Part shown: positions 9,426-25,868 of the stretch, one piece after another
How the letters are laid out: every line of letters begins with the position of its first letter
Position numbering within the stretch: position 1 is the first letter of the stretch
Assembly: GCF_028649655.1 (NCBI RefSeq)
Contig: NZ_JAQSLN010000005.1
Coordinates: forward strand, 187,409 to 251,408
Source of the DNA: Halobacteriovorax sp. GB3
GTDB taxonomy: Bacteria; Bdellovibrionota; Bacteriovoracia; Bacteriovoracales; Bacteriovoracaceae
Length of the DNA stretch: 64,000 bases
Direction of reading: 5' to 3'
Made by a program: the position numbers and the translations under genes
The notes under the pieces: model-generated
Seen by the model: only the letters and a program-made list of their open reading frames with translations
What the model was told of the DNA's origin: nothing
Databases searched by the model: none

Positions 9426-12400
9426 TTACTTAAGTTGAGTAATAAGGTTATTTATTTGTACTCGATCAGTCGCCGATGGGTTTAGCGTCAGATAAGTTTG
9501 AAAAGATTGTATCGCAAGTCTACTTTGTCCTATTTCTTTGTAAACAAAACCTAGTTGTCTATGAATAAGAGGATTATTTTCATCTTGTCTTAGCGCCCTA
9601 GAGTAGAGGTCACGTGCCTCTTCAAAATAGCGCTGTCTGAGCTTTAACCAGCCAAGCCCCATAAGAGCATCAACGTATTTAGAGTTCAGAGCAATGGCCT
9701 TTTCAAAGCCTTTTCTAGATTCTTTATAATCACCTTTGAGTCTTTGAGCCTCAGCTAAAATGAAATAACCATTCTCCAAAGTTGGATTGAGTTTAATCTC
9801 TTTGTTTGCAAACTCAATCGCTTCATCATATTTACCAACTTCAACATATATTTTTGAAATATAGTAATTAACTCTTGGATAAGTCTTCAATCTTTGCGCG
9901 ATAAAATTTAACTGATCCAGTGCTTCTTGAAATTTTCCCTTTTCAATAAGGATCGATGATAACTCCATCCTAACAACAAGATTTCCAGGTTCAATCTTTA
10001 ACAAGTTCGTAGCATAAGAAATAACATCATCTAATCGCCCTTCTAGCTTTCCTGAACGAATCATAGACTTATAAAAACTTGCACTTCTTTGAGTTAAATT
10101 CTCAAGCCTTTCTTTGAATACTTTATAATTATCAAGCTTTTGTTGCTGATAATAATAGTATGCAATATCACCTATCAATGTCGGATGATCGGGATGGGAC
10201 TCAAGTATATCTAATAGATAAGAGATTGCTGTATCACTTCCTTCAGTTTGGCTTATTATGCGAGCATAAAAACTTCTGTATTCAATATTTCTAGGATCTA
10301 AAAGGATTGCTTTTTGAATCCTTGCCTTACTGAATTGATAATTTCCGGCCCTAAAATAGACTTTAGCAACTTCAAAGTAGTTCTCGTCATGGAGTGGATC
10401 TATCTGCAAACTTTCATTATAAGATCTGATAGCTAATTTAACGTTTTTAATTTTTACGTAGTATTGAGCTAGCATTGTTTGATATTCAGCAAAACGAATA
10501 TATTTTGTTCTAGAAAGTGCCGATAATAATTTCTTAGCGTCCGATACTCTAAAACTTTCGATATAGGCATTAAATAGGATTGAGTTTACTTCTCTCTCTA
10601 GAGGATAATCTTTGCGAATCTCTTCTAAAGTCTCAATAGCAAAAGAAAAGTATCCTCGCTTAATCTGAATCTCAGCTAAATACAGCTGCGCTTGTATATT
10701 CGATTCATCTAAATCCGCGGCCTGTACAGCATATTGAAACGCCTTGTCCCAGTTGAGTTTTTTCTCAGCCAGCTTTGCCTTTCTTATTAATTCTTTAATT
10801 TTACTTTCACGAATAAGATATTCTGTAATCTTATCTCCACCGATCTCAAGTTGTGCAAGTCTTGTTCTTAGTTCTTGATCCTCTTTAATTTTAAGGGCCA
10901 TTTTAAAGTAGAGTGATGCCTTTTTAGGATCTTTCAAATAAGCCGTTAAAACACCCATCTTCTCTAAGTATTCAGCGTAATAAATTGGAGATTTTTCGGC
11001 CTCTAGTTCATTGATTACTTTTAGAGTTGTAGTTAATTTTTTAAAATCACTTCTGTGGATAAGTAAATCTGTATATAAGAGAAGATAGGGAACACTTGTC
11101 TTATATTCACCAGAATACTTATTCATCAATTCATAAGCATCTTTATGATTTTCATTCAAAATCATATATCGACTTAATGAAAGAACTGTTTCCTCATTCA
11201 TTTTCTTAACTTGAAGTAAACGATTTGCAACTTTCTCGGCCTTATCTAGTACACCAGCTTTTACAAGGGCATTCAGATAAGCTGCAAACAAGCGAGTTGT
11301 TGGCTTATTTAAGCGAAGATAATTTTCAATGATATTAATCGACGTATAATACTTTTTAACTTTTGAATAAAAAAGGGCTGACCCTAGAGCAATGTTTACA
11401 TCTGAAAACATCTTAGAGTTATTTAGCTGGAGAAGTTTAAAAATATTTTGAGCTGCTTTTCTCTTGTCTTTAGCATTCTCATAGATTTCAGCGTAGATTA
11501 ATACAAGATAGCCCATTGATTTATTATCTTTAAATTGATGTTTTAAAGATTCATTAAACTTCTTAACTGCACGAACTTTTGCAGGATAAGTACCTTTTTG
11601 ATAGGCCTTTATACCTTCTTCATATGCATTTCTACTCTTAATAACATCCTTATATTCAGCAGCAACTGGAAAAGTAATATTAACTGAAACTGGTTGTATA
11701 TTTCGAACTTTCTTCTCTTCTTCAGGCATCATCAGATAAGCAATGATCAGGAAAAAGATTAAGGCCATAATTGGTCTCATTCCTTTTTTCTTTTCAACTA
11801 CTTCTTTTTTCTCAACGACTTCAACAACCTCTTCTACTTTTTCTTCAAGAGATTTCTCAATTTCCAGTTCGAATTGTTTAGCCTCATCTAGAAAATTTTC
11901 CTCTTCAGGCTCATCGCCTTTAACAGGTAACTGTACGACACGAGTTTTCTCATCAATATCAATCTCTTCCTCAACGACAGGAAGATTCTCTTCATCTGCT
12001 GATTCCTCAGATTCACTATCTTTGTTTTCAATTTCGTCTAATTCTTCTCTACCGATAACAACCGTTTTCTCAACATTATTTGAAACGGGGCGATTGAGAA
12101 CAATCGTTTTATCAACATTATTCTCATTCTCTTCTTCCTCTATGAGCTCTTCGTTGATTTCCTTCTCTTTTTGTTGCTCTTCTTGGTACTGCCTTTCTAG
12201 CTCATCATAATCAATATGAATTTCATCCTCATTTTCATATTGAAGCTCAGGAAGTTCAGCTTCTTTTTGTTTCGGTTCTATATTTTTTACGATTTGGACT
12301 TTTTTAGAGAATGTATTTTGAGTGAGATCATTCGCTTTCTTATGTTGAGCAAATTCTTTGAGTGCTTTTTTAATGTCTGGATAAAGTAGTATGTTTTTCC

Positions 12401-12533
12401 ATTCACCAACAGGAAAACTCTGGCAATTTTCATTACCTTTGATATGACCTTTTTCAAATAGTTCTACGATTTGAGAAACTTTAAAAGGACCAACGACACG
12501 CTTATTTTCTAATCTTATCCTATACTTAGACAT
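9426..12533 (-). CDS. Transmembrane protein: cytoplasmic GYF-like domain, acidic linker, TPR-rich region
   Basis: 1035 residues. Residues 1-58 resemble a GYF_2 domain (VVGPFKVSQIVELFEKGHI, then FPVGEW). About 60-250 is a very acidic, probably disordered linker with three Thr motifs (DKTIV 141-145, EKTVV 155-159, EKTRV 195-199). About 253-270 is one hydrophobic helix. The rest, probably periplasmic, is more than a dozen TPR-like helical repeats, for example YFEVAKVYFRAGNYQFSKA and NPLIHRQLGFVYKEIGQ. A GYF domain joined by one helix to periplasmic repeats recalls components of the Myxococcus gliding apparatus (GltJ has GYF, GltI has TPR), and Thr motifs of this kind can be FHA ligands; both are inference. 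It follows the Nuo-like set by 62 bases. Confidence 0.7.
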   Translation of the reverse strand: MSKYRIRLENKRVVGPFKVSQIVELFEKGHIKGNENCQSFPVGEWKNILLYPDIKKALKEFAQHKKANDLTQNTFSKKVQIVKNIEPKQKEAELPELQYENEDEIHIDYDELERQYQEEQQKEKEINEELIEEEENENNVDKTIVLNRPVSNNVEKTVVIGREELDEIENKDSESEESADEENLPVVEEEIDIDEKTRVVQLPVKGDEPEEENFLDEAKQFELEIEKSLEEKVEEVVEVVEKKEVVEKKKGMRPIMALIFFLIIAYLMMPEEEKKVRNIQPVSVNITFPVAAEYKDVIKSRNAYEEGIKAYQKGTYPAKVRAVKKFNESLKHQFKDNKSMGYLVLIYAEIYENAKDKRKAAQNIFKLLQLNNSKMFSDVNIALGSALFYSKVKKYYTSINIIENYLRLNKPTTRLFAAYLNALVKAGVLDKAEKVANRLLQVKKMNEETVLSLSRYMILNENHKDAYELMNKYSGEYKTSVPYLLLYTDLLIHRSDFKKLTTTLKVINELEAEKSPIYYAEYLEKMGVLTAYLKDPKKASLYFKMALKIKEDQELRTRLAQLEIGGDKITEYLIRESKIKELIRKAKLAEKKLNWDKAFQYAVQAADLDESNIQAQLYLAEIQIKRGYFSFAIETLEEIRKDYPLEREVNSILFNAYIESFRVSDAKKLLSALSRTKYIRFAEYQTMLAQYYVKIKNVKLAIRSYNESLQIDPLHDENYFEVAKVYFRAGNYQFSKARIQKAILLDPRNIEYRSFYARIISQTEGSDTAISYLLDILESHPDHPTLIGDIAYYYYQQQKLDNYKVFKERLENLTQRSASFYKSMIRSGKLEGRLDDVISYATNLLKIEPGNLVVRMELSSILIEKGKFQEALDQLNFIAQRLKTYPRVNYYISKIYVEVGKYDEAIEFANKEIKLNPTLENGYFILAEAQRLKGDYKESRKGFEKAIALNSKYVDALMGLGWLKLRQRYFEEARDLYSRALRQDENNPLIHRQLGFVYKEIGQSRLAIQSFQTYLTLNPSATDRVQINNLITQLK

Positions 12534-12595: not shown

Positions 12596-13666
12596 CTATT
12601 TCATACGCAGCTTAGAAACTTTCGTTAGTTGTTTAATAATAAGAAGGCCAAGCCCAGTTACAAGTAGAAATAACAACAACTTCTCATCTGATGTTAAAAA
12701 GAAAACTTCATTCTTGTTTAAAAGCAAACCCACAATGAGGTTCATCACAAAAATTATTGAGAACGACACTCTATAGTTTTCAATGTTTTCTATTTTTGCT
12801 TTTTCGACTAAGACTAGAGGAAAGAGAATCAATAACGAGAGAATCGTATATATTTCCAAATTCACCATCATCGTGAAAAAGAAGTATGTACAAAGAGCAT
12901 TACCAGCAATTACATTCTTTGTTATAGATTTTCCCTTTCCAAAGAAATAATAACCAACTGAAAAGCTCATAAACAAAAGACCAACGATTGAATTAAACTC
13001 TTTATACAAGTTCATAGATTGATCAAATTCAATGGACTTGAAACCGACTCCACAGAACAAAGATATCAATGTAATTAAAGTTAGCTCAATGAAGCTAACA
13101 TCTTTCTTATTTTCACTACTGATTAAAAACAGAGAGTTTATTGTAAAAATAAGCAAACTAACTGATGCCCACAGCATTTGAAACATTAAAGAATCAGATA
13201 CAAGGGGACTTGGTATCAATAGACTTGTGAAACTCAATTTTGAAAACACCATAATCGCTATGACAATCATAAATTTGAAGAGCATCATGCGAATAGATTC
13301 ATACCGGTTCTTTAGTAAAATCTGTTGAAAAATAACAAGCGATGAAATAATGAGGAGAAATGTTATCAACTTGAAATCAGTATAAATGAGATAAACGCTA
13401 AGTCCGTAGAACAAATTTAAAATGGCTGCCTTTACTCGCCCCTCTAATTCAATATTACGCTCAAAAAACAGACATAATAGAACAGCAGATAATAAGAACT
13501 GCCAGTTAAGACCAAAGGTTTTAAAAGTGATTAATAAATTAAAAAGTCCTACAATACCAAAACAGCTTATTTGAATAACTAGATCACGGCCATTTAATAA
13601 CTTAACAAATAAGACAAGCATCATTAAAAGCGTATAAAGAACGATTACTATATCATAACTAAGCAT
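12596..13666 (-). CDS. Degenerate NuoN-like membrane protein (N')
   Basis: 356 residues, about 11 hydrophobic helices, no recognised family by eye. It is the seventh gene of a set that repeats the order of the complete nuo membrane-arm genes upstream, so it sits where NuoN would be. A local match supports this: ILLKNRYESIRMMLFKFMIV resembles the NuoN stretch SLKKNDTRSSEAGLKYVLYG and is followed by similar IMVF/IMLF segments. The helix before it, which carries Glu141 in NuoN, has no acidic residue here (Ile/Ser around 106-109). It is about 135 residues shorter than NuoN and overlaps the preceding gene by 8 bases. If homologous it has lost proton-channel residues. Function unknown. Confidence 0.6.
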   Translation of the reverse strand: MLSYDIVIVLYTLLMMLVLFVKLLNGRDLVIQISCFGIVGLFNLLITFKTFGLNWQFLLSAVLLCLFFERNIELEGRVKAAILNLFYGLSVYLIYTDFKLITFLLIISSLVIFQQILLKNRYESIRMMLFKFMIVIAIMVFSKLSFTSLLIPSPLVSDSLMFQMLWASVSLLIFTINSLFLISSENKKDVSFIELTLITLISLFCGVGFKSIEFDQSMNLYKEFNSIVGLLFMSFSVGYYFFGKGKSITKNVIAGNALCTYFFFTMMVNLEIYTILSLLILFPLVLVEKAKIENIENYRVSFSIIFVMNLIVGLLLNKNEVFFLTSDEKLLLFLLVTGLGLLIIKQLTKVSKLRMK

Positions 13667-14609
13667 ATTTAATATTCCTTCTCGTTACATTAAAGAATCC
13701 TACAGCAAATAGCAGGGCCATCACTATAGGCTCAATTCTCGATGTGGAAATCATTAATACTGTTAGAAATAATAAGACGAGATCAAAAACCGGTTTTACC
13801 CAAAGTATTTCACTCATTTTAAAATCTTCAAAAATAATCGAGACCAAATATATAAAAAATAGTACGAATATTAACGATAGCTCTTGTGAACTATTATTTA
13901 GTATCAAAATAGGAAACATAAAAAGAACGAAATTTGTTAACGATCCTGATGCTGAGGTTTTCTTCAAAAGATAATTGATTAATAAAAAACCAATCATTAA
14001 GTAAGTAATCAATGCTTGAAATTGAGAGAAGGTATTCAACATCATTGCGTTTGCAAGAAAGAGACATTGAAATGATACTGTTTCTATTTTTCTTTCACTA
14101 GTCGCCTTATTGGTAACAAAGTTAAATAATGATAAGGACATTATCATAATCATTGTTACTTCAATGTAATCTTGTTGATAACTATCGAAAATATATAAAA
14201 AAATAGAACAAATAAGACAAAGTAAATATGGTAGATCCGCAAACGTTGATCGCCTATACTTAACCCAATTCATTATCAAGAAACATATTCCAATATATGA
14301 AAACACCCAAAAGCTTGCATGATTTACCAAAAACTGCCCTACCAATAAAGCTATTAAAGTCACTCTATTGGCCATGGTAGCACTTAAATAAGGCGTTAAT
14401 AACGTCGCCATGATTATAGTTATTGATACCTTATTCGATAAAATACTTAGAGAATAGACAGTATTAAAATATCCCATCTTCACAACAAACGCTTCAAATA
14501 ATAGATATGAGATTAAAGCAATTGGAATAAATTTAACTCGCACATTAAACGACTTTGCGTTTATACCTAATGCAATTAAAAAGAATAATGCTGAAATAAT
14601 ATATGTCAT
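13659..14609 (-). CDS. Degenerate NuoM-like membrane protein (M')
   Basis: 316 residues, about 9-10 helices, in the NuoM position of the duplicate set. FWVFSYIGICFLIMNWV (100-116) parallels the NuoM segment FYVYWEVMLIPMFFLIGVW, in which Glu144 is the essential proton-channel carboxylate; here Tyr105 replaces it. The C-terminal SEILWVKPVFDLVLLFLTVL followed by RIEPIVM parallels the NuoM end (AREVFYMIPLCVAVIFFGIF, then PILNVM). It is about 190 residues shorter than NuoM, so several helices are missing. It overlaps both neighbours (8 and 4 bases), which suggests coupled translation. The frame is intact, so this is not a simple pseudogene. Homology is inferred from order plus local similarity. 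Confidence 0.6.
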   Translation of the reverse strand: MTYIISALFFLIALGINAKSFNVRVKFIPIALISYLLFEAFVVKMGYFNTVYSLSILSNKVSITIIMATLLTPYLSATMANRVTLIALLVGQFLVNHASFWVFSYIGICFLIMNWVKYRRSTFADLPYLLCLICSIFLYIFDSYQQDYIEVTMIMIMSLSLFNFVTNKATSERKIETVSFQCLFLANAMMLNTFSQFQALITYLMIGFLLINYLLKKTSASGSLTNFVLFMFPILILNNSSQELSLIFVLFFIYLVSIIFEDFKMSEILWVKPVFDLVLLFLTVLMISTSRIEPIVMALLFAVGFFNVTRRNIKYA

Positions 14610-16087
14610 TTCAACCTCACAAGGTAAAGAATCGAAAGTGCCAAACTCATCAATAAGATGATAGTTGAAATTTTTCCTTCATCGAGCTTAAAAGAGTAAT
14701 TTAATCTTTGAATCGAACTCTCTTCAGATGACTTTTCTATAACAGCTATTTCTTCACTATCTTGCTTAACAAATGAAAAACCATTAGCAAATATGAAGTC
14801 ATTTACCTTCGAGTTAACAAGCTTATGCTTTTGAATATGTATTACATAAGAATAAAGAGCAATAATTAATAATATGATACCGAATGAAACATAATATGTT
14901 TCTGGTTCTATAACAATTTGAACATAGTCTTTATTATAGAGGTTTGTAGAAAGAGAACTGAATAACTTATCTTTGAGATTCGTAAAAATAAAAAATGGTG
15001 TTAACACTATAAGACATAGTGATGTCAAATAGTGACTCGCAATCACATCGTTTACTTCATCCATTTCAGCGAATACAACAAGGAAAAGACATTGTGTTAA
15101 TTGTAATACAGCGACAGGAATTGCAAGTGATACAAGTATAGTCGAGTCTACAATATTCAAATAGATCATTAAACCAATGACATGAGTAATGAAAAACAAT
15201 AGTTTGAATAACTTCGTAAATTCATTTTTAGATTCAAATCTTTCTCTGTAATTAAAAAATGAGTACAAGGCCTTAAAGTTAATAACAACAATTGGCAATA
15301 TACAAAAATGTAGGATCGATAAGATTGCCATGCCTTTTATCAAAAGAATATAAGACGCTAAATAAGTCGTGAGAACAAAGAAGCTAAATCGTTTTTTTAA
15401 TTCTCTATTAAAGAAGAATAGTAAAACAGAGATAAGATAGGTAAGTAATACGAGAGCAATGATTACATAATTCCCATAGTAATTAATTGCAGGGAATTTT
15501 GCTAAGAATATTAAACTTGGAAGAAGTACTGAAAATTTTTCAAATGAATCATCCTTATAAGTTAGTTGTATATTCAATAGAGCATTAATAAAAATAGATA
15601 TTGAAAGTAAAACACCGAGTGTTCTCAAATTGGTATTAATAAAGATCGTATTGAAATTTTCTATCGACTCTGTATTCAAAATTGAGATTGAGTAAACGAC
15701 AGACACAGTTAAAAACGCTAGAAATATTGATTTACTCCATCTTAGAAAGTTACTCGTTGTTGTTTTAATATTATATAATTCAACAAGTACAAACATCATC
15801 ATGGCCAAGAATGTTGAGAATGTTGATGCCAATATTACTGTTAAAACATGTATAAGAACATTCTTGTTACCTCTATGACAGACATAGTTAGCTACTATAA
15901 AAAATACTAAACACAGAGATAGTCCGCCTATTTTAAAATCTAATAAATTTGAAAATAGAATATTATTCGCTACCATTTGATTAACATTGAAAGTTAAATC
16001 AACATTTAAACTAATAAAAAACAGTATTACTGAAAATACTGTTAGTACGATTTGAGAAATACTATTTTTAGTTAAATTATTCAACAT
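14606..16087 (-). CDS. Degenerate NuoL-like membrane protein (L')
   Basis: 493 residues, about 13-14 helices plus a soluble stretch near 420-465. It occupies the NuoL position. The C-terminal end is the best evidence: LDEGKISTIILLMSLALSIL matches the final NuoL helix LQSGKIQFYFIMIILVLTGY, and NSKVNDFIFANGFSFV resembles NKYYFDDVYIKGFIQ just before the NuoL lateral-helix region. MFVLVELYNI (98-107) parallels FIFWEIMGF, so the channel glutamate (Glu103) seems retained, and LIKGMAILSIL may retain the lysine of IFKACLFL. It is about 230 residues shorter than NuoL. It overlaps K' by 11 bases and M' by 4. Function unknown. Confidence 0.65.
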   Translation of the reverse strand: MLNNLTKNSISQIVLTVFSVILFFISLNVDLTFNVNQMVANNILFSNLLDFKIGGLSLCLVFFIVANYVCHRGNKNVLIHVLTVILASTFSTFLAMMMFVLVELYNIKTTTSNFLRWSKSIFLAFLTVSVVYSISILNTESIENFNTIFINTNLRTLGVLLSISIFINALLNIQLTYKDDSFEKFSVLLPSLIFLAKFPAINYYGNYVIIALVLLTYLISVLLFFFNRELKKRFSFFVLTTYLASYILLIKGMAILSILHFCILPIVVINFKALYSFFNYRERFESKNEFTKLFKLLFFITHVIGLMIYLNIVDSTILVSLAIPVAVLQLTQCLFLVVFAEMDEVNDVIASHYLTSLCLIVLTPFFIFTNLKDKLFSSLSTNLYNKDYVQIVIEPETYYVSFGIILLIIALYSYVIHIQKHKLVNSKVNDFIFANGFSFVKQDSEEIAVIEKSSEESSIQRLNYSFKLDEGKISTIILLMSLALSILYLVRLK

Positions 16088-16322
16088 TTCCTCTCTTTTT
16101 TAGAGATAATAATGCTGAGAATATGGAGAGAATTCCAAAGCATAACAATAAATAAGAAAGAAAAGTAAGCTGAGATTTTTCAATATTTAAGTCAACGGTT
16201 TTCAATATAACAATAGAAACAAGAATAAGAAGAAAATACGCTCTTATTTGTTCACTGATTCTGGATCTAAAAAAAATTGAAAACAATCCTGCTAGAGTTG
16301 CTATCACCAATAAATAGAACAT
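16077..16322 (-). CDS. Degenerate NuoK-like small membrane protein (K')
   Basis: 81 residues with three predicted helices, the size class and topology of NuoK (101 residues in the intact copy). It sits between the J' and L' genes just as nuoK does, and its start overlaps the J' stop by one base exactly as nuoK overlaps nuoJ. The two membrane glutamates of NuoK (Glu36 and Glu73 in the intact copy) are missing: the corresponding helices read LLILVSIVIL and LLLCFGILSIFSALL. It could not serve in proton transfer the way NuoK does. Homology rests on synteny, size and topology. Confidence 0.6.
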   Translation of the reverse strand: MFYLLVIATLAGLFSIFFRSRISEQIRAYFLLILVSIVILKTVDLNIEKSQLTFLSYLLLCFGILSIFSALLSLKKRGNVE

Positions 16323-16792
16323 TATTTCTTCTCCTTAGTGACATTTGAGAAGATGTAAAATATCGCCAACGTTAGAACCATTAGACTAATATCCCCAAGC
16401 GAGATCTCCGTCAAAACATTGCTATGATCATTTGCCCACATACTCTCGACTTCGTTTACAGGTCTTTTCTTATAAAGAATAACTGTAACAACACCTATCA
16501 ATAGAGATAAAATAACAGTGTTGATACTTTTGGCCTTAGTCATCTGCTCTGATTCTTTGATTCTTTTCCAAAAAGGCTCATTTGATGAATTTAGAAGTTC
16601 TGAAATAAAGTATACGAGTATCGTACTTACAAAGAGTACAGCTCCAAACTCTAATCCATGCTCAAGAACTACAACAGTAACCATTACCAAGGACAATAAG
16701 AACCATGAGACCTTTCTCGAGTAATAGTCCTTAGCGAGTGTATATACTGTAGCAACAATAATTAAACAGATAATTAAAATTGTGTTCATCAT
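16322..16792 (-). CDS. Degenerate NuoJ-like membrane protein (J')
   Basis: 156 residues, about 5 helices, like NuoJ (176 in the intact copy). FGAVLFVSTILVYFISELL resembles the NuoJ helix-3 region AATQLVVYAGGVVILMLFG, but without the glycine pair that forms the NuoJ pi-bulge. The end, LTEISLGDISLMVLTLAIFY then SNVTKEKK, parallels ITDHVLAFEISSVLLLGALV then SRPTRKG. A charged loop (about 70-85) separates the third and fourth helices as in NuoJ. It overlaps the H' gene by 4 bases (ATGA) and K' by 1. Function unknown; the frame is intact. Confidence 0.65.
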   Translation of the reverse strand: MMNTILIICLIIVATVYTLAKDYYSRKVSWFLLSLVMVTVVVLEHGLEFGAVLFVSTILVYFISELLNSSNEPFWKRIKESEQMTKAKSINTVILSLLIGVVTVILYKKRPVNEVESMWANDHSNVLTEISLGDISLMVLTLAIFYIFSNVTKEKK

Positions 16793-17778
16793 TTATAATT
16801 CTCGATAATTAATTGAACAAAGAAAATAGAAATTAAGATCGGCACGAAGAAGTTAATAACAAATCTCTCCATATTAAAAAGTACAACTTTTTTGAATCTT
16901 GTTTTTATCCACTCAACAGCAATTCCACCGATAAAAACTTTAATTACTAGAGACAAGGTCTGACTCATTAATAAAGCAATGTCCCCATACCTAGTTAACC
17001 AAGTAAGTCCTGGTAAAACTTGATAGCCTCCAAAGAATACTGTGACGAACAATAGAAGAAGAAACAGTGTTGTAATTTCTTTCGATATATAGGTGAATAT
17101 ACTTTCTATGGCCATTTTCTCTTTATTAACCCTACAAACTAACTGTTGATACTCATCTTCTGTTTGAATTGTTGAAACAGGAATCAAGAAAAAGAAAGCA
17201 AACATAGCAATAGGATGCAAAATAGCATTGTAATCAGTAAATGAAGACTGCAAGTTAACGAGCTCAGAAACAAGGCTGATTTTTTGAATTAGAAGTACTT
17301 TCATTACAGATAAAAAGAAAAGGCTATAAATGATTAAGTTTTTCCACAGTACCTTAAAACGTAATTTCTTCAATGAATATTCAAATCTTCTTCCAATGAG
17401 AATCATAGGAAAGATTGAAAGGAGAAACGTAATAGAAAGTCCCAATAAAATAGAGTAGTCAGCGTCAACGAATTTAAATTCAATCATCGTCGACTTAAAT
17501 ACAAGCCCATCTGCAAAAGGGAGAAAAATAAAAGGCAGTATAGAAAGTAAGATATAGATCAAAATACCAAAATCAACCATGAGACTGCGATTGTCTATAT
17601 CAAGAAGAAAATGACGTAACTTAATATATAAGTTACTTGGCGAATTCACGACAATTGGTAACGTATATGACTCTAAGAACTTCTGCCTAAAGAATTTTAG
17701 CAATCCCAGACTTAGGAAAATAAATGTAAATACATAAGTCGTTTTAACTATTGTGATAAAACTGGCATCCATGCCCAA
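16789..17778 (-). CDS. Degenerate NuoH-like membrane protein (H')
   Basis: 329 residues, about 8-9 helices, the usual NuoH length. Residues 213-254 align without gaps to NuoH 251-292 of this window: both begin with LV, share the E eight residues in, and end with GGYQV versus GGYKV. Downstream VEWIKTRFKKVVLF parallels VRWTLPRMRVDHLMVL before the last helix. The quinone-chamber signature of NuoH (ETNRAPFDLPEAESE and the ERK/GPNRVGP region) is absent, so quinone chemistry is unlikely. This is the clearest single piece of evidence that the seven-gene set descends from a Nuo membrane arm. It lies 8 bases after A' and overlaps J' by 4. Confidence 0.75.
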   Translation of the reverse strand: MGMDASFITIVKTTYVFTFIFLSLGLLKFFRQKFLESYTLPIVVNSPSNLYIKLRHFLLDIDNRSLMVDFGILIYILLSILPFIFLPFADGLVFKSTMIEFKFVDADYSILLGLSITFLLSIFPMILIGRRFEYSLKKLRFKVLWKNLIIYSLFFLSVMKVLLIQKISLVSELVNLQSSFTDYNAILHPIAMFAFFFLIPVSTIQTEDEYQQLVCRVNKEKMAIESIFTYISKEITTLFLLLLFVTVFFGGYQVLPGLTWLTRYGDIALLMSQTLSLVIKVFIGGIAVEWIKTRFKKVVLFNMERFVINFFVPILISIFFVQLIIENYK

Positions 17779-17786
17779 TCCATTTT

Positions 17787-18128
17787 TTACTTATTTATTA
17801 ATGACTTGATTATAACTAAAAAAGGTAAAGGTGAAACGATAATAAATAGTACGAATTTGGTATCAATATCTTTTGAAAAATAAGACTCAATAGTGAAATA
17901 TGCCAAGATCACCCATAAGAGAATTGCGATCATCTCGGCCGACTTATCGAATACATTTGTACGAAAAGTCGTATTGAAGTGAGACTTAAATCTATATGTA
18001 CTTTCGTTTGATTTTGTATCTTGAACTTTTGAACTATCAGAAAAAAACAGCCTTGATGCAGCTACTAATATAATAGCTACGATCAAGGCCGGTAATAAAT
18101 AGATTGTGATCTGATTTATTGTTTCCAT
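17787..18128 (-). CDS. Degenerate NuoA-like small membrane protein (A')
   Basis: 113 residues with three predicted helices (about 8-28, 64-82 and 90-108) and a polar loop after the first, the NuoA layout (140 residues in the intact copy). The loop segment FNTTFRTNVFDKSAEMIAIL and the helix after it resemble WSNFNVRFYVVALIFLIFDV. The YECGE motif of NuoA, which contacts NuoH and the quinone entrance, is missing. The gene starts only 6 bases after the nuoN stop, so the duplicate set is probably transcribed with the nuo operon. Homology is inferred from position, topology and weak similarity. Confidence 0.55.
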   Translation of the reverse strand: METINQITIYLLPALIVAIILVAASRLFFSDSSKVQDTKSNESTYRFKSHFNTTFRTNVFDKSAEMIAILLWVILAYFTIESYFSKDIDTKFVLFIIVSPLPFLVIIKSLINK

Positions 18129-18134
18129 TAAGAG

Positions 18135-19610
18135 TTATTTAATGAAAATCTTCGCTCCATCAGCAATTAGGATGATTTTTTCCCAAAACACACCAAGAAC
18201 GACAACTGGTACACAAAGAGCAGCGATGAAAGTTTGGTTAACAAACCCAAAACCTTCAATTTTCTCATCACTTTCTGCTGGCTTGAAAACCATAAGTCTT
18301 ACAATCTTCAAATAGTAGTAAAGAGAGACAACACTGTTTAGACCAAGAATTACTGCAAGTACATAATACTTCTCTTTCAAGATCGCTGCTAGAATATTGA
18401 ACTTAGCAACAAAACCTGAAAGTGGAGGAAGACCTGCTAGAGAGAACATTACGATCGCCATACAAATGGCCATAACTGGATACTTATTCATAAGCCCATT
18501 AAATCTCTCAAAATGATCATTTCCATACTTATCTTGAACAATTGAAACGATAAAGAACGCTACGATTGTCATAAACATATAAGTGATTAGGTAGAAAAGA
18601 ATTGATGTAGCCCCTGTTTGTTTTAAAACAGTAGCCGCTGCAATCATAACACCTGCGTGTGAGATTGAAGAGTAAGCTAACATTCTTTTTACTGATCTCT
18701 GTCCGATTGCTGAAACGTTACCAACAGTCATAGTAAGAGCAGCAACAACACTTAGTGTTCCAACCCATGTCATCTGAAGAGCTGTTGGCTCGCCACCAAA
18801 GAAAACCATTGTCACTCTTGTAAGAACAGCAATACCTGCAACCTTAGGAACGATTGCAAAAAATGTTGTAACAGGAAGTGGTGAACCTTCATAAACATCT
18901 GGTGTCCACATGTGGAAAGGAACACAAGAAATCTTGTAACCAATACCTACAAAGAACAATAAGAACGATGGAAGAAGAATGGCCATCTTCTGTGCATCTA
19001 ATGTTGGAAGAATTTGCATAATCTCAGTGAACTGAATTGTACCTGTCATACCAAAGATATGGCTGATACCGAAAAGCATGATACCGGCAGAAACACCACC
19101 ATAGAGAACATACTTTAAACCAGCTTCTGATGATCTTGTGTCATTCTTCTTAAGAGATGCAAGAACATAAGAAAGAATAGAAAGTGTCTCAATTCCAATA
19201 TAAAGAATTAGCATGTTATTTGCAGAAGAAAGAAGCATACCACCAACGAGTACACCAACTGCGATAATAACGAACTCAGACTTCATATCTTCATAGATGT
19301 CTTTTGATTGTCTACTTAAGTAGATTACAAAAGCTGTACCAAGAACCATCACGATTTTAGCAAGTGTGCTAAACGAATCGATTACTACAGAGCCAGTAAA
19401 CAGTGTCACTGGATCTTTAGATAGGCCTTGAACAAGATATACTAGAGAAAAGAAAAGACCCATGTAGGCAAAACCAAAAAGGTAACCCTTAGAACTTCCT
19501 TTCTCTTTGTCACTATAAGCGGCCTCAATCATAATGAGACCGACCATAGTAAAACACATAATCAGTTCTGGAACATAACGTCCAATATTTGCTAAATAAG
19601 TAAGTGCCAT
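18135..19610 (-). CDS. nuoN: NADH-quinone oxidoreductase subunit N
   Basis: 491 residues, about 14 membrane helices of the antiporter-like fold. The helix-5 glutamate is present (LYIGIETLSILSYVLA, Glu141), with SSEAGLKYVLYGGVSAGIML after it, FHMWTPDVYEGSPLPVTTFF, the lysine/histidine helix RMLAYSSISHAGVM, and AGLPPLSGFVAKF near the C-terminus. It is one of three proton-translocating antiporter-like subunits in the complex I membrane arm. It is the last intact nuo gene of the run, 13 bases after nuoM, and 6 bases before the degenerate second set. Confidence 0.97.
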   Translation of the reverse strand: MALTYLANIGRYVPELIMCFTMVGLIMIEAAYSDKEKGSSKGYLFGFAYMGLFFSLVYLVQGLSKDPVTLFTGSVVIDSFSTLAKIVMVLGTAFVIYLSRQSKDIYEDMKSEFVIIAVGVLVGGMLLSSANNMLILYIGIETLSILSYVLASLKKNDTRSSEAGLKYVLYGGVSAGIMLFGISHIFGMTGTIQFTEIMQILPTLDAQKMAILLPSFLLFFVGIGYKISCVPFHMWTPDVYEGSPLPVTTFFAIVPKVAGIAVLTRVTMVFFGGEPTALQMTWVGTLSVVAALTMTVGNVSAIGQRSVKRMLAYSSISHAGVMIAAATVLKQTGATSILFYLITYMFMTIVAFFIVSIVQDKYGNDHFERFNGLMNKYPVMAICMAIVMFSLAGLPPLSGFVAKFNILAAILKEKYYVLAVILGLNSVVSLYYYLKIVRLMVFKPAESDEKIEGFGFVNQTFIAALCVPVVVLGVFWEKIILIADGAKIFIK

Positions 19611-19623
19611 AACGACAACCCTC

Positions 19624-21156
19624 TTAGTACTGCGCTAGAAGTGAAACAAGTTTCCCAACTGAAGCTTTCATAACATTTAGAATCGGTGATGGGAAAATTC
19701 CGAAGAAAATTACCGCTACACACAATGGAATCATGTAGAAAACTTCTCTAGCATTCATATCTGTGTATGACTTACACTCTTCAACAACTTCTCCAAAAAA
19801 CATTCTCTTGAACATCCATAGAAGATAAGCTGCACCGATAAGAAGACCAACAACACCAATAACTGTAATTGTTGTAAATCTCTCATAGATTCCTAGGAAA
19901 ATTAGAGCTTCAGAAATGAACCCTGATAGACCTGGAAGACCCATAGATGCAAACATCGCGATGATGAAGATAATTGAGTAAACTGGTAGTTGAGTATAAA
20001 GACCTCCAAAACCTTTAGAACCATCTGGTCTAACGATCCATCTGTGGTGAGATCTTTCATAAAGAATACCGATCAGTAGGAACATCATAGCTGTTGAAGT
20101 TCCGTGGTTAAACATCTGAAGAACAGCACCGTTCATACCTTGAACTGTCATAGCAGCAAGACCTAGCATTACAAACCCCATGTGTGAAACAGAAGAGTAT
20201 GCAACAAGTTTCTTAACGTCAGTTTGAGCCATTGCACAGAATGCACCGTAAATAACGTTAATAAGACCAAGCCAAGCGATAGCATCAGAAAAGTAAACTG
20301 AAGCTTCTGGGAAGATTGGGAATGCGATTCTTAAGAAACCGTAAGTACCCATCTTTAGAAGAACACCGGCAAGGATAACTGATATAGCAGTTGGAGCCTG
20401 TACGTGAGCGTGTGGCAGCCATGTGTGGAATGGGAAAACTGGAACTTTGATAGCGAACCCGATGAAAAGTGCTACAAAGAATAGTTTTGCAAATGGAATT
20501 GCCATTCCAAAAATCTCAACTACTTCCTTAGTGAAGTGACCACCAGAAAGAGCAAGAATATCAAATGAGCTTTCTGTTTGCCCTGATACAAAGTAAAGAG
20601 CAACCATACCAACTAGCATTAAGATTGATCCAAAGAACGTATAAAGGAAAAACTTAACAGCAGCGTATTCTCTGTTTTCTCCACCCCATACACCGATAAG
20701 GAAGAACATTGGAATAAGCATTACTTCCCAATAAACATAGAAAAGGAAGAAATCAAGGGCCATGAATACACCGTAAACAGTACTTTGTAGGAACAGTAGT
20801 AGTGCAAAGTAAGCCTTAACTTGCTTTTTGATAGTCCAAGAAGAAAGAATACAGATCGCTAGAAGCAATGATGTAAGAACAATCATTGGAAGAGAGATCC
20901 CATCAACTCCTAGGTAATAATTAATGTTGAATTGGCTGATCCAAGGAATCTTAACAGAAAATGCTTGTTGCATTCCTGGAACTGTCGTGTCGAATTTTGC
21001 ATAAAGCACTAAAGACAAGACGAGAGTAATAACAGTGTTGATCAAAGACCAAACTCTAATTGCTCCTTCCTTAGTTCTTGGAATGAACAAGATCCCTAAA
21101 ACACCAATAATTGGCATCCATAGAATCCAGTTTAATAAATTTGACGTACCGCTCAC
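19624..21156 (-). CDS. nuoM: NADH-quinone oxidoreductase subunit M
   Basis: 510 residues, about 14 helices. The essential glutamate is Glu144 in FYVYWEVMLIPMFFLIG, the same number as in E. coli. The broken-helix region FPFHTWLPHAHVQAPTAISV and KKLVAYSSVSHMGFVMLG are intact, as is MFNHGTSTAMMFLLIGILYE. It is an inner-membrane antiporter-like subunit that pumps protons in complex I. It sits between nuoL (26-base gap) and nuoN. Confidence 0.97.
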   Translation of the reverse strand: MSGTSNLLNWILWMPIIGVLGILFIPRTKEGAIRVWSLINTVITLVLSLVLYAKFDTTVPGMQQAFSVKIPWISQFNINYYLGVDGISLPMIVLTSLLLAICILSSWTIKKQVKAYFALLLFLQSTVYGVFMALDFFLFYVYWEVMLIPMFFLIGVWGGENREYAAVKFFLYTFFGSILMLVGMVALYFVSGQTESSFDILALSGGHFTKEVVEIFGMAIPFAKLFFVALFIGFAIKVPVFPFHTWLPHAHVQAPTAISVILAGVLLKMGTYGFLRIAFPIFPEASVYFSDAIAWLGLINVIYGAFCAMAQTDVKKLVAYSSVSHMGFVMLGLAAMTVQGMNGAVLQMFNHGTSTAMMFLLIGILYERSHHRWIVRPDGSKGFGGLYTQLPVYSIIFIIAMFASMGLPGLSGFISEALIFLGIYERFTTITVIGVVGLLIGAAYLLWMFKRMFFGEVVEECKSYTDMNAREVFYMIPLCVAVIFFGIFPSPILNVMKASVGKLVSLLAQY

Positions 21157-21182
21157 CGGACAACTCCTTATAAAAAATTAAC

Positions 21183-23366
21183 TTATAAAGCTAAAATGTA
21201 ACCTGTTAGAACTAAAATAATCATAATAAAGTAGAACTGAATTTTACCTGATTGAAGAGTTCTCAAAATAACATTGAAAAATCTTACTGAAGCACCAGTT
21301 CCATCAACACCAATAGTGTCAACAACGAGGTTGTCGAACCACTTAGCAACTGTGTAAAGCCATCTGTTTACTGAAGCCCAACCATCAACTGCAAATCTGT
21401 CATAAACACCCATGTCAAATTTAGCAAGAAGATTGTTAAACGGTAGTAGACCTTTTTGAATAAATCCTTTGATATAAACATCATCAAAGTAATATTTATT
21501 CTGAAGTGCTCTATACCATCCAGAGAATGTATTAACCCACCAACCTGGATTAACAGATTTCTTGATGTACATAAGGAATGCTAAGAAAACACCAGAGAAT
21601 GCGATGATGATTGAAGCAATAGCTCCAATATGGTGCACATGGTGAACATGATGCGCTCTTTCTTCATCTAGACCGTGGTTTGAATCATATTGAGACATTG
21701 GAAGCTGATTTTTAGCTCTAGTGTCTTCATTTCCAAACATTTGTCTTTCGTAAGCAGAGAATTTCTCTACTTTTGGCTTAGCAATTAGAGTATCAAACCA
21801 CTCAAGCTTACCTTCAGCACTTGCTACTTTAACAAGCTTTTGACCTGTAAGTGATCCAGAGAACCAGATACCTAAAGTGAAAACTGAAAGAATTAGAAGA
21901 GGAACGTTTCTATTCCAAGAAAGCTTCTCAGAGTGAGTATGATCATAAAGTTCTTTATCTCTTGGCTCACCGTGGAAAGCTAAGAACATCATTCTACACA
22001 TGTAGAAAGCTGTTAAGAAGGCTCCAGCAAAACCAAGAATTGTTGGAATCCAATAGAGACCATTATCAAAAGCCGCTACAAGTGCATCACCAAGGATTCT
22101 GTCTTTAGAAACGAATCCTGAGAAGAATGGAATACCAGCAATAGCAAGTGTACAACACCACATTGCAATCCATGTGAATCTCATTTTATTTTTAAGACCA
22201 CCCATTCTTGGCATTTCTTGTACGTGCTCATGAGTGTGATGATCGTGTAGTGAGTGAATTACAGAACCGGCACTTAGGAAAAGACATGCTTTAAAGATAG
22301 CGTGTGTAATCAAGTGCATAAATGCTGCATTGTAAGAACCAACTCCAACACCTAGTACCATGTATCCAAGCTGAGAAATCGTTGAATAAGCAAGTACTGC
22401 TTTGAAGTCTGTTTGAACAAGAGCAATCGTTGCAGCACCGAAAGCAGTAATTGCCCCGATACAAGCGACGAAGAATGTTAAGTTACCAGCTTCAAGAATT
22501 GGGTAAATTCTAAGTGAAAGATAAACCCCAGCAGCAACCATTGTAGCGGCGTGGATTAGGGCCGAACATGGAGTTGGACCAAACATCGCATCTGGTAGCC
22601 ATACTTGAAGAGGGAATTGAGCTGATTTACCAATTGTACCAGCAAAAATACAAAGACCAGCAAAAGTAGCAAGAGGAATTCCAAGAACCATAACTGGATC
22701 AAATTTTCCTGCAGCAAGTGCTGAATAAATATCAACAAATGAAACACTTCCAACAGTTGTCCAAACAGCAAGAATACCTAGGAGGAAGAAAACATCCCCA
22801 ATTCTTGTTGTCATGAAGGCCTTAATTGAAGCATTACCTGCACCTTCTTTCTCATAGTAGAAACCGATCAGTGAGTATGAACAGAATCCCATGATCTCCC
22901 AGAAGATGAAAACTGAAAGTAGGTTATCCGAAAGAACAAGACCAAGCATCGCAGAAGTAAAGAGAGAAAGGTAAGTAAAGAATCTACCATTTCTACCGTA
23001 GTTCATATCATGGTGCATGTAGTAAGTTGAAAAGATGTGAATCAATGTCGCAACAGCAGTAACCATAAGAAGCATAGTTGCTGTCATGTTATCGATATAG
23101 ATACCCATATCAACTTTAAACGCCTGTCCACCACCATTAAGGTCAAACCATGGGAATACCTTATGGATGTAGTAATCAGTCGCGTAATTTCCAAAGACAA
23201 AGTCCTTAAAAACTCTAAATGCAAAGAGGAATGATCCAAAAATCGCAGAACAGCTTAGCGCAACGGCCGTTTTTGTAAATTTTCTAGCAATAAATGCGTT
23301 AATTACAAATGCACAAAACGGAAGCAGAACGATTGGAGCAATACTACCTAGTGTATAATCCATCAC
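21183..23366 (-). CDS. nuoL: NADH-quinone oxidoreductase subunit L
   Basis: 727 residues, longer than E. coli NuoL (613). Helix 5 has Glu157 in FIFWEIMGFCSYSLIG. The antiporter core motifs GKSAQFPLQVWLPDAMFGPT, VLAYSTISQLGYMVLG and THAIFKACLFLSAGSVIHSL are present, and the C-terminus carries the long lateral-helix region ending LQSGKIQFYFIMIILVLTG. Extra length lies in a histidine-containing cytoplasmic or periplasmic insert (about residues 480-600, with EERAHHVHHVHHIG). It is the distal proton pump of complex I; the lateral helix braces the membrane arm. Confidence 0.97.
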   Translation of the reverse strand: MMDYTLGSIAPIVLLPFCAFVINAFIARKFTKTAVALSCSAIFGSFLFAFRVFKDFVFGNYATDYYIHKVFPWFDLNGGGQAFKVDMGIYIDNMTATMLLMVTAVATLIHIFSTYYMHHDMNYGRNGRFFTYLSLFTSAMLGLVLSDNLLSVFIFWEIMGFCSYSLIGFYYEKEGAGNASIKAFMTTRIGDVFFLLGILAVWTTVGSVSFVDIYSALAAGKFDPVMVLGIPLATFAGLCIFAGTIGKSAQFPLQVWLPDAMFGPTPCSALIHAATMVAAGVYLSLRIYPILEAGNLTFFVACIGAITAFGAATIALVQTDFKAVLAYSTISQLGYMVLGVGVGSYNAAFMHLITHAIFKACLFLSAGSVIHSLHDHHTHEHVQEMPRMGGLKNKMRFTWIAMWCCTLAIAGIPFFSGFVSKDRILGDALVAAFDNGLYWIPTILGFAGAFLTAFYMCRMMFLAFHGEPRDKELYDHTHSEKLSWNRNVPLLILSVFTLGIWFSGSLTGQKLVKVASAEGKLEWFDTLIAKPKVEKFSAYERQMFGNEDTRAKNQLPMSQYDSNHGLDEERAHHVHHVHHIGAIASIIIAFSGVFLAFLMYIKKSVNPGWWVNTFSGWYRALQNKYYFDDVYIKGFIQKGLLPFNNLLAKFDMGVYDRFAVDGWASVNRWLYTVAKWFDNLVVDTIGVDGTGASVRFFNVILRTLQSGKIQFYFIMIILVLTGYILAL

Positions 23367-23393
23367 TATTACCCTTATATATCAGTTCAGTTA

Positions 23394-23699
23394 TTAACTC
23401 TGTAATTGAGTAGCATCATCAATGTGAATACTATCTCTAATCTGGAAGAATCTAATCACAATCGCAAGACCAACAGCTGCTTCAGCCGCGGCAATAACGA
23501 TAATGAAAAGAGACATAAGATGCCCTTCCAAGTTGTTATTAATAAATCTTGTATAAGCAGCAAAGTTAAGTGCCGCAGCATTCAAGATAAGCTCGATTCC
23601 AAGCATAATCGCAATGATATTTTTTCTTGCGATCATGACTGCGATTCCGCATACGAAAAGAGCAAAAGCAATAAAAAGATATGAAGCTAATGTTATCAT
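23394..23699 (-). CDS. nuoK: NADH-quinone oxidoreductase subunit K
   Basis: 101 residues, three helices. Both conserved membrane glutamates are present: Glu36 in IMLGIELILNAAALNF and Glu73 in IIVIAAAEAAVGLAIVI. The subunit forms part of the E-channel that links the quinone site to the antiporter-like subunits. Its start overlaps the nuoJ stop by one base. Confidence 0.97.
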   Translation of the reverse strand: MITLASYLFIAFALFVCGIAVMIARKNIIAIMLGIELILNAAALNFAAYTRFINNNLEGHLMSLFIIVIAAAEAAVGLAIVIRFFQIRDSIHIDDATQLQS

Positions 23700-24229
23700 T
23701 ATCCTTTCCTCGTCGGTCTAGAAATTACTGCTGCACCAACAAGAGCTCCCAGTAGTAAAACTGAAGAAATCTCGAAAGCTAGTACGTGGTCAGTAATTAA
23801 CATTGTTCCAATTTTTTCAACTGTCGAAGTGAACTCTGGAAGTTCACCAATTTCATTTGCTTTAAGAACGCTAGCGATAATTTTAAGTAGAACAAGTGAA
23901 ATTACTGTTGCACTTAAACCACCGATAATGAAAGTTTTAACAGAACCCATACCAGGTACTTTAACTAGTCCAAACTTGTTAGCGTTATTAGTGTTTCCAC
24001 CAGTAAGCATGATTCCAAAAAGCATTAGAATAACAACACCACCTGCATATACAACAAGTTGAGTTGCAGCTAAGAAATCAGCTCCAAGCGTAGCGTATAA
24101 TCCAGCTACACCAAACAGACTTGCTAGAAGGTAAACACATGCGTGAACAAGGTTTTTAGTCCCTGCTACCATGATTGCACCACCTAGTGTCAGTAGGGCA
24201 GAAAGAAAAAAGAGCGTACTACCAAACAT
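23699..24229 (-). CDS. nuoJ: NADH-quinone oxidoreductase subunit J
   Basis: 176 residues, five helices. The helix-3 region VVYAGGVVILMLFGIML has the glycine pair that allows the pi-bulge/alpha transition during turnover, and NLVHACVYLLASLFGVAGLY precedes it. The C-terminal SSVLLLGALVGAAVISR is typical. It lies 17 bases after nuoH and overlaps nuoK by one base. Confidence 0.97.
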   Translation of the reverse strand: MFGSTLFFLSALLTLGGAIMVAGTKNLVHACVYLLASLFGVAGLYATLGADFLAATQLVVYAGGVVILMLFGIMLTGGNTNNANKFGLVKVPGMGSVKTFIIGGLSATVISLVLLKIIASVLKANEIGELPEFTSTVEKIGTMLITDHVLAFEISSVLLLGALVGAAVISRPTRKG

Positions 24230-24246
24230 CTAAATTCCCCTATATT

Positions 24247-25443
24247 CTAATGATGTCCACCGGCAGCACCTGCGCCTGCGGCCATTATTAGTTCCATAAT
24301 TGATTTACCATCAAATGCATACATCCAAACCGCTACACCAACTAGGTTGAAAAGTGCGATTGGAGTTAAATATTTCCAACAAAGAACCATAAGGTGGTCA
24401 ACTCTCATACGTGGAAGTGTCCAACGAACCCAAATTACTACGTAATAAAGGAATAGAGTTTTCGAAACGAATGATCCAATTTGTAGAAATTGTCCTATGT
24501 TTTTTCCAAGCATTGGATGAAGTCCAAGTTTCTCAGCGAAAAGTGCTCCGTTTCCAAGATCGAAAGGTACTTTATATCCACCCATGAAAAGTGCTGCTAC
24601 AACACCACAAACAACAAAGATCTCAACGTATTCAGCAAGTGCAAAAAACGCGAATCTCATACCTGTATATTCAGTGTGATAACCAGATACTAGTTCTGAT
24701 TCAGCTTCTGGTAGGTCAAATGGTGCTCTGTTTGTCTCAGCAAGTGCTCCGATAAACATGACAAAGAAACCAATGAACATGAATGGGTTATGAAACATAT
24801 ACCATTCGTGAGGAAGACCCCCCTGTCCTTCAGTGATTGTTTGGATATTCATTCCACCAGCAAGTAAAACTGCTGCAAGGATTGATAGTGTTACTGGAAC
24901 TTCGTATGAAACGATTTGAGATGCACCCCTCATACCACCAAGCATAGACCACTTAGAGTTTGAAGCGTAACCACCAAGGAAGATACCGATACCAACAAGT
25001 GATGCCATACCAACAAGGTAAAGGATACCAACGTTTAAGCTAACGAGCGTAAATCCACTTGAGATTGGAAGTACTGCGATCGTTGCAAAAACTCCGGCCA
25101 TACAAAGTGCAGGTGCAATCGTAAAAAGAAATTTATCCGCCTGTCTTGGGATAACGTCTTCTTTAAGAAGCATCTTTACACCGTCGGCTAGGAATTGAAG
25201 AATCCCGAATGGACCAACGCGGTTTGGACCTTGTCTCATTTGGATGTCGGCAGAAATCTTTCTTTCTGCATACGTTCCAAGACCACCGACAGCGGCCAAG
25301 ACATTGACTAGAATAAAAGCGGCAAGTGCAAAAACGACAAAAGCCACAAGTGAAGTGGCATCGAAACCTAAAGTTTCTGTCAGTGTTTTTACAATCGCTT
25401 GATAGCCTTCAGTTTGAGAAAAGTATGAGACGATACTGTTCAT
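24247..25443 (-). CDS. nuoH: NADH-quinone oxidoreductase subunit H
   Basis: 398 residues, about 60-70 more than usual; the excess includes an N-terminal segment (residues 1-35) before the first helix and a glycine/histidine-rich tail. Quinone-chamber motifs are intact: YAERKISADIQMRQGPNRVG (from residue 58), ALAETNRAPFDLPEAESELV (233-252) and GYHTEYTGMRFAFF. NuoH anchors the peripheral arm and forms the quinone tunnel. It starts 2 bases after the nuoA stop. The peripheral-arm genes it must meet (nuoB, C, D, I and others) are not in the window. Confidence 0.97.
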   Translation of the reverse strand: MNSIVSYFSQTEGYQAIVKTLTETLGFDATSLVAFVVFALAAFILVNVLAAVGGLGTYAERKISADIQMRQGPNRVGPFGILQFLADGVKMLLKEDVIPRQADKFLFTIAPALCMAGVFATIAVLPISSGFTLVSLNVGILYLVGMASLVGIGIFLGGYASNSKWSMLGGMRGASQIVSYEVPVTLSILAAVLLAGGMNIQTITEGQGGLPHEWYMFHNPFMFIGFFVMFIGALAETNRAPFDLPEAESELVSGYHTEYTGMRFAFFALAEYVEIFVVCGVVAALFMGGYKVPFDLGNGALFAEKLGLHPMLGKNIGQFLQIGSFVSKTLFLYYVVIWVRWTLPRMRVDHLMVLCWKYLTPIALFNLVGVAVWMYAFDGKSIMELIMAAGAGAAGGHH

Positions 25444-25445
25444 CT

Positions 25446-25868
25446 TTAATCCTCTTGTGTAGCTGTTTCATTAACCTGGTAAGACCTAACCCAATCAAGG
25501 TCACCTTTCTTCCAACAATAAACAACACCTGCGAACAGGATTGTAATGAAAAGAAGAAACGAACCTAGGACAGCTCCACCGAGGCCAATCTCATTAAACT
25601 TCTTAAATACTGAGGCAACTGGAAACATTAAAGCTCCCTCAACATCAAAGATAAGGAAGATAAGTGCTACAACGTAAAAGCGAACGTTAAAGTTCGACCA
25701 AGCTGTACCAATTGGTTCCTCACCACATTCGTATGGTGTTTGCTTAAGTTCAGTAGGGTTATGTGGACGTATCAGCATCCCTACTAAAAGCGCACCAAAT
25801 ACCATAATCAATGCGAATGCCATTAAAATTAATACTGGCATGTAGACGTCTAAGTTGTATGACGACAT
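25446..25868 (-). CDS. nuoA: NADH-quinone oxidoreductase subunit A
   Basis: 140 residues, three helices. It carries the NuoA signature YECGEEPIGTAW (46-57), NVRFYVVALIFLIFDVEGAL (61-80) and the acidic Asp75/Glu77 pair. The reading begins after a GGAG about 10 bases upstream. It is the first gene of the leftward A-H-J-K-L-M-N run and is divergent from mfd across a 169-base gap, where its promoter should lie. Confidence 0.97.
   Translation of the reverse strand: MSSYNLDVYMPVLILMAFALIMVFGALLVGMLIRPHNPTELKQTPYECGEEPIGTAWSNFNVRFYVVALIFLIFDVEGALMFPVASVFKKFNEIGLGGAVLGSFLLFITILFAGVVYCWKKGDLDWVRSYQVNETATQED

Follow-up and report, generated by a model that had tools for sequence, protein, structure and literature searches.

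A decayed second complex I behind the intact nuo genes of Halobacteriovorax sp. GB3

Directly behind the respiratory complex I genes of Halobacteriovorax sp. GB3, which belongs to the Bacteriovoracaceae group of predatory bacteria, lie seven further open reading frames (ORFs) for membrane proteins, and this locus raises the question of what these genes descend from and why they have been kept. In this study, we analyzed a stretch of 64,000 nt of this genome (NZ_JAQSLN010000005.1, positions 187,409 to 251,408; hereafter the window) together with the corresponding loci of its relatives, whose genomes and loci carry G and L numbers, respectively (G000 is the genome of the window and G001 a congeneric genome). 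The results showed that the seven genes, here termed A' to N', form the membrane arm of a second complex I, Nuo2, the orthologue of the NADH-type complex I that stands beside the first one, Nuo1, across the phylum.

Layout and identity of the seven membrane proteins

On the minus strand, nuoA-H-J-K-L-M-N of Nuo1 is followed by A' to N' and then by a gene for a 1035-aa tetratricopeptide repeat (TPR) protein, while mfd is divergent and lies on the opposite side of the locus from the TPR gene. The set runs from 18128 to 12596 and comprises seven minus-strand ORFs of 113, 329, 156, 81, 493, 316 and 356 aa; these co-directional genes, their A-H-J-K-L-M-N order behind nuoN and all their coordinates and lengths had been given correctly in a preliminary description of this DNA. 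A' begins 6 bases behind nuoN, whose edge is at 18135. Overlaps of 1-11 bases, also described before, were found at five of the six internal junctions (H'/J' 4, J'/K' 1, K'/L' 11, L'/M' 4 and M'/N' 8), and the sixth, A'/H', turned out to be a gap of 8 bases. The one-base overlap of J' and K' does recur between nuoJ and nuoK of Nuo1. The identical seven-gene string, flanked by nuoN (or mfd) on one side and the TPR gene on the other, recurs at more than 40 loci of the family, which is more than chance would give.

Pfam and NCBIfam searches returned no significant match for any of A' to N', so that annotation relying on these databases is blind to all seven proteins. Nevertheless, gene order and helix counts fit the complex I pattern of 3-8-5-3-16-14-14 helices from A to N: 3-8-5-3-14-11-12 helices were predicted for A' to N' and 3-8-5-3-16-13-14 for Nuo1, with L', M' and N' being shortened. 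The same shortening was observed when degenerate sets were compared with intact ones (median 13 vs 16-17 helices for L, 10 vs 13-14 for M and 12 vs 14 for N).

In profile-profile comparison, H' (16789..17778, 8 helices) matched NuoH at 98.5% over 307 columns with no rival family, confirming a resemblance proposed earlier. A' (17787..18128, 3 helices) and J' (16322..16792, 5 helices) were drawn in at E < 1e-3 by hidden Markov models (HMMs) iterated from the intact set, in the case of A' from the intact Nuo2 NuoA, and the helix count of J' agrees with its slot. The assignment of the remaining four draws on their slots, their helix numbers and a gradation of intermediate forms among relatives. 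For K' (16077..16322, 3 helices) these intermediates matched NuoK at 80-98%; for M' (13659..14609, ~11 helices) they were G022 (99.8%), G029 (96%) and L047/L030 (88%); for N' (12596..13666, ~12 helices) they matched NuoN at 96-99.7%; and for L' (14606..16087, ~14 helices) there was G022 (99.7%) beside otherwise weak intermediates. Specifically, G022 matched all seven Nuo subunits at 87-99.9%, and L045/L113, L047/L030 and G029 bridged A, H, J, K, M and N at 80-99.9%. Matches to a wrong family stayed at or below ~17%, apart from those among L, M and N, which are homologous to one another. A pooled profile of all degenerate copies clearly detected H' only, and cluster-level profiles combined with intermediates performed better; still, a number of degenerate clusters are without a clear match, and for L' the only strong bridge is G022. 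We read the intermediates as one graded series, with L' as the weakest case.

Two points speak against this identification. Four of the window proteins (K', L', M' and N') have no direct sequence match: similarity to the respective Nuo family, for which the preliminary description had put forward profile-profile comparison, was seen directly for H', with iterated HMMs for A' and J', and for the other four only via the intermediates of relatives. In addition, AlphaFold2 models of L' and M', built from 28 diverged sequences, had pLDDT values of 52 and 58 and were too poor for a fold test; Foldseek with these low-pLDDT models found no match, complex I NuoJ chains standing among the L' hits far from significance.

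Origin and decay of Nuo2

In 13-14 loci of the same GTDB family the set is full-length and recognizable by BLAST, as in L025, with 25-40% identity to Nuo1 subunits, and elsewhere in the phylum, outside this family, an intact Nuo2 is often found in tandem with Nuo1. The NuoH tree placed Nuo1 of the family with Nuo1 of the phylum (99 SH-aLRT), apart from Nuo2; the degenerate H' copies fell outside Nuo1, on very long branches, and their exact placement is unsure. Moreover, the intact Nuo2 orthologues have an NADH-type peripheral arm of their own. Since Nuo1 and Nuo2 are separate lineages in tandem phylum-wide, the set is an orthologue of ordinary NADH-type complex I, and it is best read as the descendant of an old second complex I and not as a copy of the adjacent operon. 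The preliminary description had proposed an ancient tandem duplication of that operon. A lineage-specific duplication of the neighboring membrane arm, without a peripheral arm of its own, would explain the shared gene order and the direct adjacency, but both the separation of the two lineages in the NuoH tree and the peripheral arm of the intact orthologues argue against it, and we regard it as extremely improbable. A recent tandem duplication of the neighboring operon was rejected on the same grounds.

Nuo1 itself is of the 11-subunit type without NuoEFG. Its intact membrane arm occupies 18135..25868 on the minus strand (nuoA 25446-25868, nuoH 24247-25443, nuoJ 23699-24229, nuoK 23394-23699, nuoL 21183-23366, nuoM 19624-21156 and nuoN 18135-19610), and its peripheral part in G000 consists of B-C-D-I only (L130 9110-11914, G000:C3), with NuoF (PF01512) found nowhere in the genome.

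A second NuoD-like gene of G000, outside the window and ~200 kb from the canonical B-C-D-I genes, led to the peripheral arm of Nuo2. It stands in a block (G000:C3, locus L129 9207-13263) of Lpp, a 506-aa lipoprotein, B' (175 aa), CD' (525 aa, C and D fused) and I' (131 aa), from which E, F and G are missing. CD' matched PF00346 at 5e-49 and also PF00329, B' matched PF01058 at 2.6e-7 and I' matched Fer4; among PDB chains, CD' is nearer to NuoD (E 5e-42) than to hydrogenases (6e-16 and 1e-9). In G014 and G031 the corresponding block reads Lpp-B-CD-E-F-G-I, which is the make-up of an ordinary NADH-type peripheral arm; CD, E and F are also seen on the G028 contig. E, F and G have been lost in G020 and G009, and diverged remnants of E, F or G are left in G006, G027 and G086. 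B' of the window genome has none of the four N2 cysteines, all of which are kept in G003, G006, G008 and G023, and the quinone-site His/Tyr region of its CD' is lost. The eight cysteines of I' (both CxxCxxCxxxC motifs) are kept in the window genome and several relatives and lost in G016, G021 and G035, where CD' nevertheless persists.

The membrane arm has fared likewise. By pattern search, the NuoH quinone loop, both NuoK Glu, the NuoM helix-5 Glu and the WLPDA/WLPHAH region are absent, in agreement with the losses in NuoH, NuoK and NuoM reported in the preliminary description; H' retains the GGY..P region, and the PNRV and E.E.EL quinone motifs are gone. Across the degenerate sets, in which subunits are shortened by up to one third, quinone-site and pump motifs are absent: the H and K patterns are missing, as are most of those for L and M; the permissive patterns used for L, M and N gave a few unsure matches, and those for NuoA and NuoN were either over-stringent or over-permissive for good judgement. 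These results demonstrated that the whole of Nuo2 decayed together, its NADH module, quinone-site residues, N2 cysteines of B' and pump motifs all being gone. By descent Nuo2 is placed in complex I, while by function, as judged from the absent NADH module and these motifs, it fails the defining features of the enzyme, and we therefore refrain from describing it as a functional complex I.

Parallel decay and replacement enzymes

In a tree of Nuo1 NuoM+NuoN, genomes with an intact, a degenerate and a missing Nuo2 interleave, and the branches with good support require six or more changes for the degenerate state and five or more for the missing one. Nuo2 has therefore decayed several times. A five-gene reduced form, consisting of A', H', J', K' and one 214-aa membrane protein ahead of TPR, was observed at L018, L075 and L107.

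The Na+-translocating NADH:quinone oxidoreductase (Na+-NQR; PF05896/NqrA) was present in none of the 13 genomes with an intact Nuo2 and in 38 of the 44 with a reduced one (Fisher p 1e-8, too optimistic a value given that the genomes are related and some of them incomplete). It is present in G000, and NQR had previously been noted in Bacteriovorax marinus (PMC4014512). The six reduced genomes without it (G019, G023, G025, G029, G075 and G092) carry a further NADH-type complex I, Nuo3. Operons of this third complex were located at L017, L019, L027, L032, L035 and L041. In G081, whose Nuo2 is intact, no NuoF was found, probably owing to missing sequence. Reduced Nuo2 is thus associated with Na+-NQR or a third NADH-type complex I, and intact Nuo2 occurs where neither was found. 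From this association we infer that a substitute NADH:quinone oxidoreductase relieved Nuo2 of its catalytic task, the replacement coming first and the decay after it. The degenerate peripheral arm, the intact Nuo2 of related genomes and the connection to Na+-NQR all lay beyond the view of the preliminary description.

Taken together, one family offers a graded series that starts with the complete NADH-type enzyme, passes through forms that have lost the NADH module and ends in a shortened assembly devoid of catalytic motifs, and it offers several independent cases of decay with a likely trigger, namely Na+-NQR or another NADH-type complex.

Retention, possible role and known relatives

In 29 degenerate sets the reading frames have stayed open, and no frameshift was found in any retained set; at L030, one of these sets, the ORF caller overlooked K'. 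In a neutral simulation, frames break already at 0.02-0.05 substitutions per site. In close pairs, dN/dS was ~0.1-0.65 for the degenerate set vs 0.02-0.11 for NuoM/NuoN, these being rough values because dS is saturated, with many not computable. Stops, frameshifts and lost constraint, the marks of pseudogenes, were accordingly not seen: the frames of the 29 sets are open, and dN/dS is below 1, although saturated. A' and H' change most slowly and L' and M' fastest. Between G000 and G001, identity is 50% for CD' and 21-32% for A' to N'. Over 34 degenerate copies of CD', 59 columns are conserved at ≥80%, and residues 401-450 (G014 numbering) reach a mean pair identity of 0.61 vs 0.16-0.37 elsewhere; in the window genome this segment reads RSSGINYDLRK...YDRYLVRLEE. 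The strongest constraint in Nuo2 falls on CD'.

Such retention of intact genes across many related species, with the enzyme residues gone, suggests that this large assembly serves a purpose other than respiration. We consider it probable, judging from sequence, that this is a decayed second complex I that was displaced by another NADH:quinone oxidoreductase and kept for a non-redox role, and the earlier proposal of a complete, diverged membrane arm with its catalytic residues gone and a likely non-quinone role is supported to this extent. Na+-NQR or the third NADH-type complex I would take over the activity of Nuo2, catalysis would no longer be required, and Nuo2 would lose the residues that serve to oxidize NADH, reduce quinone and pump ions. 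Because the genes have been kept as open, constrained frames, we infer that their products are probably still made and still assemble into a non-redox complex, which may act as a platform or regulator through CD'. In this assembly CD' would be the conserved core, and H', A', K' and J' with the fast-evolving L', M' and N' would form the membrane part. Our best guess is a structural or regulatory membrane platform, or a scaffold, that may bind a partner via the conserved CD' segment. The wider claim, that a complete respiratory complex I has been turned, repeatedly and in parallel, into a non-redox membrane assembly of other purpose around a formerly quinone-binding CD' core, is put forward more tentatively, as having slightly less than an even chance of being right.

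Several observations, besides the saturated dS and the relatedness of the genomes in the Na+-NQR comparison, weigh against a conserved non-redox assembly. The preliminary description had looked to relatives for frameshifts or loss; frameshifts are lacking, as stated above, but the set is absent behind nuoN in ~30 loci (~30 genomes) and is therefore dispensable in some lineages. A stolpii-like clade keeps Lpp-B'-CD'-I' without a set behind nuoN, although diverged A' to N' genes possibly relocated elsewhere in the genome. Conversely, G036 (88% complete) keeps A' to N' and no CD' was found in it. Coupling of the two arms is thus not strict, and the case for a single obligate assembly is the weaker for it. 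In the clade lacking the membrane set, I' is adjoined by a gene for a 358-aa protein with 4-5 helices (L217 10836-11912; also L216, L218, L220 and L222-L225), for which Pfam gave no informative match.

Functionless slow decay is an unlikely account of the locus. Its frames might be open since stops would cut expression of the downstream TPR gene by polarity, or since truncated membrane proteins do harm, and the very fast divergence between the two congeners, the several independent absences, the shrinking lengths and the position of a core gene directly downstream would all suit it. Yet the helix number per slot is preserved and dN/dS is below 1, although saturated; the peripheral block, which is not upstream of TPR, has also been kept, with CD' well conserved; and in some genomes the absence is clean, TPR standing directly behind nuoN, which shows that removal was possible. 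We likewise find it improbable that Nuo2 is still an enzyme or ion pump of altered chemistry, for example fed by ferredoxin via I' and passing ions through the diverged antiporter subunits. The complete cysteine motifs of I' in the window genome and several relatives, the four N2 cysteines of B' kept in four genomes, and the Ehr complexes, which lack Ni/Fe ligands and are suspected of redox-charge coupling (PMC6349859), favor such an activity, whereas B' of the window genome is without any N2 cysteine, the I' cysteines have been lost in three genomes in which CD' persists, and quinone-site and pump motifs are missing across the degenerate sets.

The preliminary description had also suggested a partner of the intact complex, and adjacency at a 6-base gap, apparently within one operon, would agree with a partner or assembly factor of Nuo1. 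However, G011, G015 and G036 have no PF00361 match in the genome and yet keep A' to N' between mfd and the TPR gene; these genomes are 87-88% complete, and the locus itself shows that Nuo1 is missing. G010 has A' to N' at the corresponding mfd-TPR locus with Nuo1 not at that locus, and many genomes have Nuo1 without the set. Because the set persists where no Nuo1 was found, this role is very unlikely and was rejected. Against these alternatives, a displaced complex I retained for a non-redox role remains our preferred explanation.

Two neighbors were considered as dedicated partners of Nuo2. The TPR protein (9426..12533, minus strand; one predicted membrane helix and C-terminal TPR repeats) is encoded after N' by a core gene of the family, which follows nuoN directly where the set is missing, and in other families of the phylum a TPR protein of 930-1070 aa follows Nuo2 in many cases. 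Lpp (L129 11743-13263, and relatives) represents a conserved family of 450-555-aa lipoproteins that has no Pfam family and precedes B'-CD'; it remains in G007 and G018, where no CD' was detected. Since TPR-like proteins occur phylum-wide and Lpp outlasts detected CD', both may be neighbors only, the TPR protein possibly a mere neighbor of A' to N'. Farther along, the window encodes a 904-aa protein with many predicted helices (4311-7025), the C-terminal half of which was judged by eye to be spermidine-synthase-like.

The system poses two testable questions: whether complex I has a role beyond redox chemistry on which selection can act by itself, and which residues of the 49-kDa/CD subunit are still important once catalysis is gone. 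In the open-access literature on complex I in Bdellovibrio, Bacteriovorax and Halobacteriovorax, most subscription journals being outside this coverage, no description of the set was found. Among known systems, NADH-type complex I (Nuo/NDH-1), including the intact Nuo2 of L025 and L131, shares with the window Nuo2 the A-H-J-K-L-M-N order, the helix counts, the fused CD, B, I and the orthologous locus; the window Nuo2 differs in being without the NADH module and the quinone-site, N2 and antiporter motifs, and degenerate Nuo2 subunits are up to a third shorter and only 21-32% identical even within the genus. The 11-subunit complex I (B-C-D-I plus A-H-J-K-L-M-N), represented by Nuo1 directly upstream, has the matching subunit set without NuoEFG, but it retains its catalytic motifs, evolves slowly and belongs to a separate lineage. 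Na+-NQR carries out the same overall reaction as intact Nuo2, but the two enzymes are unrelated, and Na+-NQR is apparently a replacement. Among published cases of lost ligands, the nearest that we found is that of the Ehr complexes, relatives of complex I without the ancestral catalytic Ni/Fe ligands (PMC6349859). These are thought to be still redox-active and ion-coupling, whereas the window Nuo2 has lost its quinone, N2 and pump motifs and has intact forms in sister genera.

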